NCBI GenBank assembly: GCA_905250025.1
Contig: CAJNOJ010000251.1
Span: 87,127 to 151,126 of the forward strand
Direction of reading: 5' to 3'
Length of the DNA: 64,000 nt
Origin: Adineta ricciae
Taxonomy: Eukaryota > Rotifera > Eurotatoria > Adinetida > Adinetidae
Below, piece by piece: positions 29,672 to 36,258 of the stretch. The notes under the pieces are model-generated. The model was given only the letters and a program-made list of their open reading frames with translations, did no database searches and was not told where the DNA came from. Positions within the stretch are counted from its first letter, which is position 1. Every line of letters starts with the position of its first letter. Both the position numbers and the translations under genes were made by a program.

Positions 29672-30382
29672 TTACCCATCACACTCGACGCTGCATTTTA
29701 TTTCTCCTAAATTCCTCTGTCTATCATCGATACATTGCTCTATTCGGTACATATATTTGTCAATTTGTTTGAGTTTCGTAACAGATTGATCAAATTGATC
29801 GACGAGATCCGCTTTGCCAAATAATTTTTTCGACCAAGATAAATAATTTAAACTTTTTTCACAATCTTCAATCGGTTCAAATGCTCTTTGGACATAATAA
29901 CTTGCAATATCTCTTGTAATTCGACTAAGTAAATCAAGTTCATGCTCGAATACAATAATTTTATCGAGAAAATCAATAACCCAATCAATTTGATAGGCTA
30001 AACAGCATGTAAACACGTAGATACCATGAATGTGTTGATTTTCGTATATTCTTGGTACGAGTTTACGACCAAGTGAACCCGTCGTGACGAGAAAGATTTT
30101 TGTATTTGATTGAGAGAAATTCTCAATGAAATTGACACAACTATCTATTCTTTTAAACATTCGCAGAGTCTTGTTTTGCTTATTAATATTCATTTCATCA
30201 CAAACAGACATTGCGATTAAGTTATTAATACCCAATTCTTCCCAAAGAGTCGGTGTGGCCTGTTGAGTTGAAGTAATTATACTGAAATACTCCTTGAGTT
30301 GACGATTATTTTCTGGATAAGCAATATAAGCATCGAGCCATACAACGATATGTTTAGATACGGATCCGTGAGATTCAGCAAC
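29672..30382 (-). CDS. Stand-alone ART-partner-type N-terminal domain
   Basis: About 235 codons follow a good acceptor (CTACTTTTTAG) at 30383. The protein matches the first 160 residues of the ART-TPR protein at 41981-43987: KHIVVWLDAYI against LLLIWLDSNI, SCVNFIENF against KCIEFIETI, and LVTTGSLGRKLVPRIYENQHIHGIYVFT against MIISGSLGQHALPRLQQQSQIDSIFIF. The domain ends at a stop with no ART or TPR following. The first coding exon is not identified: the open frame runs upstream to 30538 without an ATG and the nearest exon at 30782 is in the wrong phase. It may be a truncated relative or a real stand-alone domain protein. Confidence 0.55.
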   Translation of the reverse strand, partial: VAESHGSVSKHIVVWLDAYIAYPENNRQLKEYFSIITSTQQATPTLWEELGINNLIAMSVCDEMNINKQNKTLRMFKRIDSCVNFIENFSQSNTKIFLVTTGSLGRKLVPRIYENQHIHGIYVFTCCLAYQIDWVIDFLDKIIVFEHELDLLSRITRDIASYYVQRAFEPIEDCEKSLNYLSWSKKLFGKADLVDQFDQSVTKLKQIDKYMYRIEQCIDDRQRNLGEIKCSVECDG

Positions 30383-30538
30383 TAAAAAGTAGAAATGCAA
30401 CGATAGATCGATCAAAATTTTTATATGACGTATTAAAAAATAAATAAATATCATTTCGGAATAGACGGTTCTCAACTGTCTAATTAGGAAGAAGAGATTG
30501 TTAAAGACGCATCGCCTAGACAATGAGAGATCATCCAC

Positions 30539-30781
30539 TGTTCTGAAAAATCATTGATCACTTTGTCGTGTCAATCATATTTCTGATGTACTTCTGTGCG
30601 AAACAACTGATTATCAAAAATCTATTCTTATTGTCAGAAATGTTACGATATGAAAAGTTATTCGAATCAAAGCATCACGATAATCTCTACAAATTGTTCT
30701 CATTTTTTTAATCAAAACTCAGAATTAAAAAACATTCTAACGCTTCCAAAACCTTTCACTTAAACAAATCAGTTGTCTCAT
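30539..30781. other. Short spacer or intron
   Basis: No coding sequence is recognised. It could hold the missing first exon or a long intron of the minus-strand gene at 29672. Confidence 0.3.
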
Positions 30782-31237
30782 CTAGAAAATTACGCTCATG
30801 TCATTCGTGGTGAAAATATTTTGCAATTCTTGAATCCGCAATTGTATCCAATCCAACAATGCATAACTGTGACTGGTGCATAAGTATTCATAAAGCTTAC
30901 CTTCGTTCGTTACTTCGGATGATTCAAAACTCCTATGTAGGTGAGTCCGAGCCATCTCGTTGTTTGTAAGACGAATTCGTAGTTGGTATGAGTGAATATT
31001 TTTAAAACGAGGATTGGTTTGAATTTCACCGAGATAGAATTGGTCTAATATAATATATAATTCATAGCGTTGGTCAAATATTTCCAAGAAGTATTGATCT
31101 CTATCAAGATGAAAATTTGTACATATCCATTGATGTAGATCAGCGAGTAGCAAATTCGAAGGTTGATGTTTTAATCGACATCTTTTATGCATAAAATCAA
31201 TGAGAAACTCGGCGGAAGATACAGTTTCTCTGTCCAT
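30782..31237 (-). CDS. Stand-alone copy of the USP N-terminal domain
   Basis: A 151-aa frame from the ATG at 31237. It is related to the first 95 residues of the ubiquitin-specific protease that starts 270 bp away on the other strand: IDFMHKRCRLKHQPSNLLLADLHQWI and YFLEIFDQRYELYIILDQFYL against IEHVNDSGCVLRPNNLAKFD and YTIEIFNKKHNSYFELDDTYI, ending LRIRLT against LRITWK. No protease domain follows. A GTAATT right before the stop could be a donor, but no phase-compatible downstream exon was found. The fold looks like a small alpha/beta or ubiquitin-like module, an inference from strand pattern only. Confidence 0.5.
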   Translation of the reverse strand: MDRETVSSAEFLIDFMHKRCRLKHQPSNLLLADLHQWICTNFHLDRDQYFLEIFDQRYELYIILDQFYLGEIQTNPRFKNIHSYQLRIRLTNNEMARTHLHRSFESSEVTNEGKLYEYLCTSHSYALLDWIQLRIQELQNIFTTNDMSVIF

Positions 31238-31506
31238 GTTATTGATAGAATTCTTTCTTCGGAGTCTCGTAAAGATAAAAACAACTACCACGTTATTTTT
31301 GCGTCACATTTATTGTTGGAAAAAATTGTTTTTTTCTCTTTCGTTCTTTATGGATTCAAAATTTAGCGTTCTTTTCTTGTCGTTACTGCATTGGAAAAAA
31401 TTTATCTTTTTTTCTTCGGTAGGAAAAAAATTTCCTACTGAATGATTCATGCCTCTATTCGTGTTAAAACGTATGTGCGAATCTCCTCATACTCATCAAC
31501 TTTCCC
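31238..31506. promoter_or_regulatory. Divergent promoter of the paired N-terminal-domain genes
   Basis: 269 bp between two head-to-head genes whose N-termini are related. It is T-rich and contains an exact 8-bp-arm palindrome, GTAGGAAA...TTTCCTAC, at 31419-31438. Confidence 0.5.
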
Positions 31507-34500
31507 ATGTGTGACACAATCATTGAACATGTTAATGATTCAGGATGTGTTTTACGGCCCAATAATTTGGCCAAATTCGATTCAACAACAACAATCCGTG
31601 ACATCAACGATTACCTTCAACGAACTCCTGCTAATCTCATTTCGTATGATTATACAATCGAAATTTTCAATAAAAAACACAATTCATACTTTGAACTTGA
31701 TGATACATATATACAACAATATCAAGCATTTCGGCCGTACGATGACCAGTCGAACATACCTATTAAACTACGAATAACTTGGAAGACATTCGATGATTTA
31801 CTTGCACAAAATACGCCGAGTAAAATTATGCAGATAGAATAATCAAGATGCTTATTAAATTCTTGTTTCAGATGTCAATGATCAAAATAATCGACCACGT
31901 GTTGATCTAGAAAAAGATCTTGCCAAAACTGCAATGCTGGACGATCTTGATGAAGATTTGGAATCCTGTGAAGGTAAAGAATTATAATGAACTATTTCTC
32001 TTTTTTTTACAAATTTCTTTTCATTTCAGAATTACTTGCCATTCGAACTGGAATTATCAATAGCAGTAAAGCTTCGCTCTTCTACTTGTCATTACAATAT
32101 TCTGTTTGTTTCTAATAGCTATAACAAAAATCCACTTGCCTCATGGCCAGTCGACGACAACACCATCGACTTCACAATCTTCTATTTCGATCGGCCCTAT
32201 TGTCAATGGTATGCTTGCACTCGTACGTTTCGTTGAACTCTATTCTCTTTAGAAACTCGAATAACTACTGAACCAACTACACAGTCAGTTGGAAAAATTC
32301 ATAATCTCTTAGATGGTACTAATTCACCATCAACAGATTCTGCATTGCAGTCAATTCCATGTGGATTAGAGAATCTGGGAAATACATGTTATCTCAATGT
32401 TATTTTACAAATCTTTGCTCATACGCCACCACTGATGCGATGGATTTTGAATGATAAACATCATGAAACATGTGAGTATATATCTTTTCTGGCCAAAATT
32501 ACAATGATCAGTTTGCGTTATTTAGGTCTCAACTACGAAAATTGTTTCCTTTGTATATTTCAACAAACTTTGCACGCAATGGATAGGATATCTAAGCAAG
32601 ATCACAATCGTTTTTACCCGCCGACGTTGTTGCGAAGTCAATTAGAAAAGCTCTCGATTGAATTTGCTGAAAATACTCAACAGGATAGTAATGAGCTGCT
32701 CATCAAATTATTGGATCATACTGCTCAATCATCATCAATATTCTATGAAATCTTTAATTTTCAAACACGTTGTGTTGTTTGTTGTGGTGTTTGCCACAAT
32801 CTATCAGACCGAATCGAATCACAAACAATACTTCAATGTGCAATACCTCTAAGCAATACAAGCTCTCGTCTCATTGATTGTTTGAATGATTATTTTAAAA
32901 AAGAATTTTTAACCGGTGACAATGCATATGAATGTTCATCGTGTCAAAAGAAACAGAAGGCCACACGAGAAACAAAAGTGCATTCGTTACCACAAATTTT
33001 ACCCATTTCATTAAAACGTTTCGGAGCAAATGGTCATGCAAAGCTTCTTAACAACGTTCTTTATGATGAAGTTTTACATTTGGGCCAATGGTTAAGTGAA
33101 GATTGTCGAGCAAAGACCGTTGACAAAGAGAAAGTTTATTACCTTTATGGTCTTATCATTCATTGTGGCAATGATATGGAAAGTGGCCATTACATCTGTT
33201 ACATAAAAGATGAATCAACAAATAAATGGTATGAAGCAAATGATAAATCAATCAAACTGATCGAGAACGTGATCGATAAGACCGATTCGGTGTACATTTT
33301 GTGTTATATTCGGTCAGATCTTAGCAAATTTGATCTTCAAGGAAGTCGTACAATGAATAATGAATTGCCTACTGATAGCTCAGAATTAACTCGGTCGATT
33401 CCCCTTCCAAATGCATTACGAGAGAATATAAAGTTTGGTTTCGAAGAAAATATCCATGACGAACAAAGACGTTGCGGTACATGTGATATTTATCGAACAT
33501 CAGATTCGGAAAAGTGAGTTGGTTGAAACAGAAACTAACGGTGAATTCACAATCTTCATTTAGACCGCAAGCAAAATGTCGTTCCTGGATCAAAGGAGAA
33601 AAAAGTAAACCGGGAGAAGTGACTTATCCAAAGTTAAAGGTATAAAAATAATTGAATAAATCTCGTTTCTTGATACTGAAACTATATTTTTCGATAGGTA
33701 ACCGTTCTTGATGAATTTCAACATGGCAAATGGTCTGTGCAAGTAACAATTACTACTGAAAAGAATCAATCTGGTGTATTTTATTTACATCCCGAAAAGA
33801 AACTGTTCGATGGTGAAACAAACCAATCTGAAACAATGATCAATACAATTAAAATAGATTTAAAGTCTGATGAATTGAGTAAACAAATGCATGAGTAAGA
33901 GATTCATGAAAGATGTTTTCTGAACAGATGCTTCTGCGATACTCGCTTCTCAACTGTATTTACTCTTTATAGTTTCAATTCAAATCGAAACTATCACATA
34001 TCACTTTCATTCTCAGCTATTTAAAGAGGATTTGTTTGGGGAGAATACTACCTGTGATATCTTAACTTAGATAAATTCTCTTAAAATATAGCAAAAGACT
34101 TCTTGTCTTGAATTTAGACTATTGGTCTGCCCTGTCAACCAAGGAAATCTTGTCAAAGCTCGAAAACTTCCATTGACTCCATTTTATAATATTTTGAAGA
34201 AAGAATTTATTCCATTGAAAGAAGCTATTCCAGGGAAAAGTGCGAACGATCAACGCATCGATTTGAAGAAATTCCATTTGGTTTGTGTTCTTTGTTGGAA
34301 TAATCGTCCAGTAGAATATTGTCTTTCAAATTGTGCATCGCAATGTCAGTGAAATTTTATTTTCAACTACGAATTTATTAGTTTTTATATATTTTAGATG
34401 ATGATGGAGCGAAAAGAGCCTCGAAACGAAGTGGAACTCAATCGGGTGCGATAGCTCAGAAGAAATCCAAATTATCCAACTCCAAAACGACTGAAGAAAT

Positions 34501-34603
34501 TGAAATTTGTCCTGGAGAATTCCCTATTCCAAGGTAATCTAGAGCATAAAATTCGTCAATATTTCGAACGATTTCGTGTTTTAGTAATGACTCCAATGGA
34601 TAA
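31507..34603 (+). CDS. Ubiquitin-specific protease with Rel-homology-like C-terminus
   Basis: Eleven exons: 31507-31819, 31872-31973, 32030-32065, 32119-32208, 32253-32471, 32526-33513, 33564-33639, 33698-33894, 34118-34344, 34398-34533 and 34585-34603; 800 aa, all phases consistent. Residues 1-100 are a small domain shared with the divergent neighbour, followed by an acidic and Ser/Thr-rich linker. The USP domain spans about 220-505: GLENLGNTCYLN with Cys226, QQDSNELL, a CxxC...CxxC zinc finger (CVVCCGVC, CSSCQ), and SGHYICY with His475 and ND at 492-493. The triad is intact, so active deubiquitination is expected. Residues about 585-745 resemble a Rel-homology domain, followed by a basic stretch (AKRASKRSG, QKKSK) that could be a nuclear signal. 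Confidence 0.85.
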
Positions 34604-36258
34604 AAACTATAGACTACGAGCTTTTTAAATGACATTTCTGATTTTACTTTCAAGTGATGATTTGAAATGAAAAGTGTTACCAATTGGATTGTCTAATAAA
34701 AATACCGATAGTGTTTGTTTGAAACAAATAAACGATATTTTCCAAGTCTTTTTCTTTGATATCAATTACCATTTAGATTTTTCTACTTCAATTATGGTTT
34801 CAAAAAAACTTTCCTCCACTTACCTAAACTTCATCTTCGAACGATGATTTCACTTTTCCATACTTATCCAGTGATTTTAGGCATTGGTCACTGTCTCCTG
34901 ATTTGATCGAAATCATTATTAACAAGTATGGATACTCCAAACAACGACAAATTCCAAATACTTAACGACGTTTCTTTCTCTTTCTGTTGAAAATAACTAA
35001 ATGAAATTATTTCGAATTCATGGGAAAAAAAAACAAAGTTTGTAGTATCATATCCATATAAAATCGACGAGAAAAATTAGAATTTATAATTGAAATGCTT
35101 TACTACGATCCATAAGATATTCTAGTAGACAGATCTATTAAATTTGTTTTACACGTGATAATTGTTTTTTAATGAGAATCAATGAAATCGAACAAAAATA
35201 AATACATATTTATAATGATTCTATCAAAACAAAAATATTTCATTGATATTATAATTCGTTGAGGAACACGTTTCCCTTTTAATGTAATGTAACAAAAGTA
35301 CGTCATTGTGGTCATTTGTCGAACTCGTTACTCTATCGCTCGTCGGATTCCGTTTTCTCTTGTGAAGTTGTGTAAACATTCATTAATAGCAGCACTATGA
35401 TGTGTAGAGAAAACAGCATGAGTATTCAATTCTCTATTTATTTTCATGTGATATATGACTTCTCAATTATTAAGTCTAAGAAGATATTTTGTTGTCAGTT
35501 ATATAGCAATTGTTCCATATTTATTCTTTCCCAAATTGTTATCTCACTACTTAATACAAATGCTTTGTGGGTATACATCAGATATATAACAAACGAGACG
35601 AAATCGAGAAAACAATACAAAAGTTTTTCTTCATTCAGTCAGTAATCTCTTCAAGAATAATTTTTATGTCAAACAGATACAAACTCTTTTTTTTGTTTAG
35701 AGACAAAATAAGTAAACGAAGAAAAGAAGTTTGTAAAGTGTCTGAAAAGAGTAATTGTCACATTCCAGTTTAACAATGATACAAAGTAAATCGAGATGAT
35801 CACTATGATTTCAAGACTAGAAGTCGAGTTGTCTTAGGTGAACAAAAGATGTTTCAGTCATTCAGAGAATTTGACAAAGATTACTAACAATGTAAATGTA
35901 TTGTACTTTAACTGCTAATTGTTGTTTAACGAAACTGAATTCGTTATTTTAGTTTGTACAGAGAAGAATTGACTCTCTAAATGACGAAGAGAAACAATTT
36001 TATTGAACTATTGATTCAAGAGTAATCCGAATGAAAGTGTTTCATATAGAATTCTCAATAAATTTGTTCCGTCATCTATATGAACAAAAAAAGGCATAAA
36101 CTGTTTTGAATTATTTTTCTTTTCTTTGTCACATGTTTGTTCTTTTCTTTCAAAATGGCTGATGATTATTTTTCCTTCAACGTGTTTGCTTGTTTTTCCT
36201 CTTGAAACGATTTTCATCACCATAACCGCAGTAATTACCATCAACCACCATTCGCGAC
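34604..36258. other. Intergenic, no gene seen
   Basis: About 1.65 kb of AT-rich DNA. Several short frames (35397-35773, 36008-36289) show no domain, no splice-consistent partner and biased composition. No repeat or RNA gene was recognised by eye. Confidence 0.4.

Follow-up and report, generated by a model that had tools for sequence, protein, structure and literature searches.

The window analysed here comprises 64,000 nucleotides of Adineta ricciae contig CAJNOJ010000251.1 (positions 87,127 to 151,126; GenBank assembly GCA_905250025.1). Positions 31507-34603 on its plus strand can be read as a single gene with 11 exons, GT-AG introns and 800 codons, according to an in-frame model in which splicing is predicted from the sequence. 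The frame remains open until the stop codon at 34601-34603, and the predicted 800-amino acid protein contains, in this order, an N-terminal domain, a complete USP domain and a C-terminal domain resembling the Rel homology domain (RHD). The joining of exons proposed in an earlier, sequence-only reading of this DNA, from 31507-31819 through to 34585-34603, was reproduced by the model. The following features were assigned:

31507-31819, plus strand: exon 1, with the start codon and the N-terminal domain (residues 1-104)
31872-31973, 32030-32065 and 32119-32208, plus strand: exons 2-4, linker, in-frame GT-AG splicing
32360-33307, plus strand: exons 5 and 6, USP (UCH) catalytic domain, residues 217-514 (PF00443)
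32387-32389, plus strand: codon of the catalytic Cys226, motif GNTCYLN
32472-32525, plus strand: intron of 54 nt within the USP domain, between exons 5 and 6
33188-33190, plus strand: codon of the catalytic His475, motif SGHYICY
33239-33244, plus strand: codons of Asn492-Asp493, motif WYEAND
33410-34344, plus strand: RHD-like domain, approximately residues 549-750, starting at the end of exon 6 and running through exons 7-9
33564-33639, plus strand: exon 7 (AKCRSWIKGEKSKPGEVTYPKLK), ending in phase 0, one codon past YPKL
33698-33894, plus strand: exon 8, middle of the RHD-like domain, ending in phase 2
34118-34344, plus strand: exon 9, final part of the RHD-like domain (IDLKKFHLVCVLCW)
34398-34603, plus strand: exons 10-11 (exon 11 at 34585-34603), basic tail and stop codon TAA
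34412-34471, plus strand: basic tail (KRASKRSGTQSGAIAQKKSK), possible bipartite nuclear localisation signal, judged by eye
34695-34700, plus strand: AATAAA hexamer, approximately 90 nt past the stop codon

PF00443 covers the USP domain over positions 1-254 of its 254 (E 7.2e-46), which bears out the completeness claimed in the sequence-only reading. The Cys, His and Asn/Asp boxes (GNTCYLN, SGHYICY and WYEAND) are all present, of which Cys226, His475 and the Asn/Asp residues are catalytic in this family, and two putative zinc-binding CxxC pairs (CGVC and CSSC) were identified. The best solved relative in a PDB sequence search is USP36 (E 5.3e-44). Like USP36-type proteases, the window protein has a complete catalytic domain with the catalytic residues, the zinc-finger CxxC pairs and a Cys-rich HETC...CFLC stretch; it differs from them in that its USP is flanked by an N-terminal domain on one side and an RHD-like domain on the other. 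At the sequence level, the window gene encodes a USP-type deubiquitinase that is complete and apparently active. The best-scoring USP paralogues that span the domain, on contigs C217 and C411, are 27-28% identical to the window USP. The genome yields 145 UCH matches, which are counted per exon and thus represent fewer genes, and several lie in long intron-free frames that may be retrocopies.

A divergently oriented neighbouring gene on the minus strand (29675-30550 and 30785-31303) is without a Pfam match. By eye, one stretch of it looks similar to the N-terminal domain encoded by the USP gene, but a profile gave only 6.7 bits and no claim of a shared domain is made.

The C-terminal domain and the RHD-like genes of the genome

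The Rel-like motifs quoted in the sequence-only reading are found at approximately residues 585-750 of the window protein. The RHD-like domain probably starts before these motifs, at about residue 549 within exon 6. The evidence for this added part is weak: the exon 6 end (segment A1) matches the genes on contigs C29, C56 and C10 introduced below at 5.9 bits (8 of 5000 shuffles as high). The similarity to Rel proteins, described as weak, is indeed weak when compared directly, becomes strong via relatives in the same genome, and is above chance. Profiles of four and of three canonical RHD sequences score the window C-terminus at 7.9 and 6.6 bits, respectively, with 1 of 1000 shuffles as high in each case; the shuffle controls used throughout test composition only, and HMMER values for single sequences derive from small databases. 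The four-sequence profile ranks the exon 7 ORF fourth among the 702 ORFs of the window (E 2.5), and none of the window exons comes first. For the window C-terminus, Pfam returned no match to PF00554, NCBIfam returned nothing and a PDB sequence search gave no match. Hits to Trm112p (E 0.023) and the ML domain (E 0.024) are below the Pfam cut-off and were taken as chance. In profile-profile comparison, the window domain grouped with its counterparts on C29, C56 and C10 reaches only 0.75-1.95% against canonical RHDs alone (hhalign probabilities, here and below, rest on few sequences), so the link runs through the genome's own RHD family. The workable comparison for the window domain is thus with the RHD genes of this genome and not with vertebrate ones. 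The marginal direct comparison and the silence of Pfam speak for a similarity that arose by chance, or by convergence between beta-sandwich domains, against which the intermediates and introns described below have to be weighed.

Searched with PF00554, the assembly (130 Mb, 1033 contigs) yielded two sub-cut-off matches. One of them (25.2 bits) lies in a plain RHD-like exon, and the gene containing this exon, used as query, uncovered the whole RHD-like family. At least 26 RHD-like loci were counted by eye in the genome, the window included; some of them are weak in the search and were counted since further exons of the same domain adjoin. Several loci are clustered, and the family is spread over contigs C23, C211, C201, C69, C83, C42, C554, C114, C502, C246, C29, C10 and C56 (loci L034-L065). 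Sixteen of the 19 displayed loci were used for intron analysis and profiles, omitting C211c (a near-copy of C201a), C502 (a near-copy of C114) and C554 (first exon not found). Five of these 16 members match PF00554 at E up to 1, the best with 9e-6 and 26.2 bits against a cut-off of 27; the remaining 11 are not matched at this threshold, and none of the 16 reaches the Pfam cut-off. C29, C10, C23e, C211d and C23a have no RHD match in Pfam. The downstream piece of C211b, one of eight proteins scanned, matches RHD_dimer over positions 1-102 of 103 (E 0.029); C211d and C23a, extended into the presumed dimerisation domain, gave no match to this model. An exon-by-exon search of the whole genome for RHD_dimer likewise found no match, a type of search that does not show absence.

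In profile-profile comparison with p65, p50 and Dorsal, the family reaches 95.3% alone and 96.3% with C23e included, and 94.6% when NFATc2 is added to the canonical set (0 of 200 column shuffles as high). The 16-gene profile found no match in the PDB by sequence, and a PDB search started from the RHD gene C23b ranks p65 (E 1.7) below two entries for FGF10 (E 0.36); the C23b search by itself does not identify the family as RHD. Judged by the profiles, the genome holds an expanded, divergent RHD family that is related to canonical RHDs.

Several RHD genes have a near-identical counterpart on another contig (C29/C56, C69/C83, C201/C211 and C114/C502), matching the expectation for the paired genomes of bdelloids; together with the short introns, such pairs point to a bdelloid genome. 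A partner of the USP-RHD gene, that is, a second copy, was not found in the genome searches. Two more RHD-like exons resemble that of C23e (L052:7614-7898 and L054:8507-8791; E 0.045 and 0.077) and stand outside the count of 26.

Used as a query, the window domain finds four weak places beyond itself, namely C29, C10, C23e and C56 (E 0.12 to 1.4). A search with E up to 0.1 had suggested an orphan C-terminus without paralogues, a view overturned by a shorter query with E up to 10 together with exon comparison. The genes on C29, C56 and C10 share with the window gene the N-terminal domain, the RHD-like domain and the introns inside this domain; they differ in lacking a USP, their N-terminal and RHD-like pieces being approximately 200-300 bases apart, and there is no USP match among those listed on these three contigs. 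Built from the three USP-less genes, a profile gives 61.1 bits for the C-terminus of the window protein, a score that 0 of 5000 shuffles reached. Taken separately, exon 8 (segment B) scores 29.5 bits and exon 9 (segment CD) 21.8 bits, each with 0 of 5000 shuffles as high, and their ORFs each rank first among the 702 of the window (E 2.5e-8 and 4.3e-7, respectively); for exon 7 (segment A2) on its own, 893 of 5000 shuffles score as high, and the match is not significant.

The wider family also recognises the window domain. The 16-gene profile scores the window C-terminus at 12.2 bits (0 of 5000 shuffles as high) and at 15.3 bits once C23e is added, and C23e alone scores 28.0 bits (0 of 5000). 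C23e belongs to the C23 cluster of RHD genes and is itself matched by the 16-gene profile at 37.3 bits. Against C29, C56 and C10 singly, the 16-gene profile gives 12.5, 7.8 and 2.9 bits (1, 8 and 122 of 5000 shuffles as high), and C10 alone is thus not recognised; with C23e and the window domain included in the profile, the scores are 26.3, 19.0 and 19.7 bits (0 of 5000 each). In profile-profile comparison, the group of C29, C56, C10 and the window reaches 93% against the RHD family with C23e (0 of 200 column shuffles as high). A tree groups these four with support of 100/99, and the window domain is 22-24% identical to the other three over aligned columns. The chain of homology via intermediates accordingly leads from the window to C29/C56/C10, to C23e, to the RHD family and finally to canonical RHDs.

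Intron positions and the probable origin of the fusion

Intron positions played no part in building the similarity scores. All 16 sampled RHD genes contain a phase-0 intron one codon past a YPTI-like motif and, further on, a phase-2 intron, with several of the 16 allowing other GT-AG choices too. The window gene has both introns, the phase-0 intron one codon past YPKL and the phase-2 intron, with a single solution each, and the pair falls into the same alignment columns as those of C23b and C29. The same pair is present in C29, C56 and C10; for C10, one of the two was located by eye in the sequence. An extra phase-2 intron, located earlier in the domain, occupies the same column in the window, C29 and C56 and lies within one codon of it in C10; at this place the 16 RHD genes have an unbroken exon. 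The last two domain segments are contained in one exon in the window, C29, C56 and C10 as well as in 7 of the 16 RHD genes.

The matched intron positions and phases stand against chance or convergence as the source of the C-terminal similarity, as do the significant links via intermediates, for which none of 5000 shuffles and none of 200 column shuffles scored as high. Chance similarity was rejected on the shuffles and introns, and this explanation as a whole, already disfavoured, is highly improbable. Homology of the window C-terminal domain to the Rel homology N-domain is instead supported by the profiles via intermediates, the introns and the 100/99 grouping. With the NF-kB/Rel and NFAT N-domain (PF00554; p65, p50, Dorsal, NFATc2), the window domain shares the order of conserved blocks and, through the genome's own RHD family, common descent. 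It differs in lacking the recognition loop and room for a dimerisation domain, in sharing a protein with a USP, and in having no direct match above any curated cut-off.

The N-terminal flank of the USP also resembles these genes. A profile of the C29, C56 and C10 N-termini matches the window N-terminus weakly, at 12.9 bits (none of 5000 shuffles reached this score, the best having 10.8), and ranks the exon 1 ORF first of the 702 window ORFs (E 0.0047). By eye, this N-terminal domain looks beta-grasp/PB1-like. Since the USP sits between the N-terminal and RHD-like parts of a single gene type, the simplest history is the insertion of a USP into the linker of such a gene, and the window gene is most simply read as an RHD-family gene with a USP inserted there. 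We consider it very likely that the predicted architecture, a USP between the N-terminal and RHD-like domains of an RHD-family gene type, is correct.

Two adjacent genes might nevertheless have been misjoined, a USP gene ending past exon 6 (TGA at 33515) and a small RHD-like gene downstream. Retention of intron 6 does give an in-frame stop after exon 6, and inside exon 6 there is weak RHD-like evidence, with 8 of 5000 shuffles scoring as high. However, exon 7 is an open frame without a Met for a separate start, the intron between exons 6 and 7 agrees in phase with the A1/A2 intron inside the domain of C29/C56/C10 and matches its position to within one codon, and exon 1 matches the N-terminus of these genes, so that parts of an RHD gene lie on both sides of the USP; misjoining is very unlikely.

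Among the other RHD loci in the lists, none lies within 50 kb of a listed USP, and the lists gave no second USP-RHD fusion, as on the five other contigs with entries of both kinds the nearest gap is 57,662 bases; the lists are lower bounds in both cases. The searches of open-licence literature brought up neither a USP-RHD fusion nor an expansion of Rel genes in rotifers, and the word "rotifer" is absent from the main text of PMC11432056 and PMC13042239.

DNA contact and possible function

The sequence-only reading had suggested that a deubiquitinase joined to a Rel-type fold would couple ubiquitin signalling directly to transcription, and had noted a degenerate recognition loop. The second point agrees with our analysis, in which a direct coupling to DNA finds no support. 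RxRYxxE is the DNA-contacting recognition loop of Rel proteins and is intact in p65, p50, Dorsal and 6 of the 16 sampled RHD genes; the window reads QRRCGTCD at this place, and the loop is also incomplete in C29, C56, C10 and C23e. Furthermore, Pfam finds no match to RHD_dimer (PF16179) in the window protein, and approximately 50 residues remain past the RHD-like domain compared with 103 positions in the RHD_dimer model. Sequence-specific DNA binding by the window copy is unlikely, given the lost recognition loop and too little sequence for a dimerisation domain.

These same features weigh against a DNA-tethered deubiquitinase, in which the RHD-like domain would bind DNA and, at target genes, the USP would act on histones or transcription factors that carry ubiquitin. 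In its favour, the C-terminal domain is homologous to a DNA-binding domain, VKARK of exon 9 aligns with VKKRD of p65, a basic linker stretch of canonical RHDs, the basic tail may be a nuclear localisation signal, and the closest solved USP, USP36, is a nuclear enzyme. We regard such tethering as unlikely. A comparably unlikely explanation is that selection acts on the deubiquitinase only and that the N-terminal and RHD-like flanks are drifting relics, as the lost recognition loop and the strong divergence from C29/C56/C10 (22-24% identity) might suggest; every domain exon is nevertheless open, with GT-AG splice sites and matched phases, and exons 8 and 9 retain clear similarity.

Taken as a whole, the locus is probably best explained as a divergent RHD-family gene that carries a complete USP, which may be recruited to Rel-type complexes. 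The N-terminal and RHD-like domains would bring the enzyme into complexes used by Rel-type proteins, its USP-less relatives among them; there the USP could strip ubiquitin from its partners, and this removal of ubiquitin might damp or edit NF-kB-like signalling. Recruitment of the deubiquitinase to such complexes is our preferred reading, held tentatively and considered likelier than the direct DNA route. It is also conceivable, if speculative, that the captured USP constitutes a single-protein editor of NF-kB-like signalling, whose N-terminal domain and non-DNA-reading RHD mimic gain entry to Rel complexes and allow their deubiquitination. CYLD, A20/TNFAIP3 and other deubiquitinases restrain NF-kB as separate proteins. 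The role proposed for the window protein, ubiquitin removal within NF-kB signalling, resembles that of CYLD and A20/TNFAIP3, with the difference that the window USP shares one protein with an RHD-like domain; we know of no NF-kB-restraining deubiquitinase that carries a Rel homology domain.

As two halves of a single pathway, Rel proteins and ubiquitin editing are, to our knowledge, found only on separate proteins. A natural USP-RHD fusion suggests joint action of both in this animal, and it opens the targeting of a deubiquitinase by an RHD-like module to direct testing. In addition, the analysis exposes a large, divergent Rel family that is mostly unnamed by Pfam, and the genome's own RHD genes, together with their introns, offer a route to the recognition of such divergent domains. 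If the window gene does encode a single-protein editor, it would have arisen in a lineage in which the RHD-like genes have expanded to 26 loci or more.
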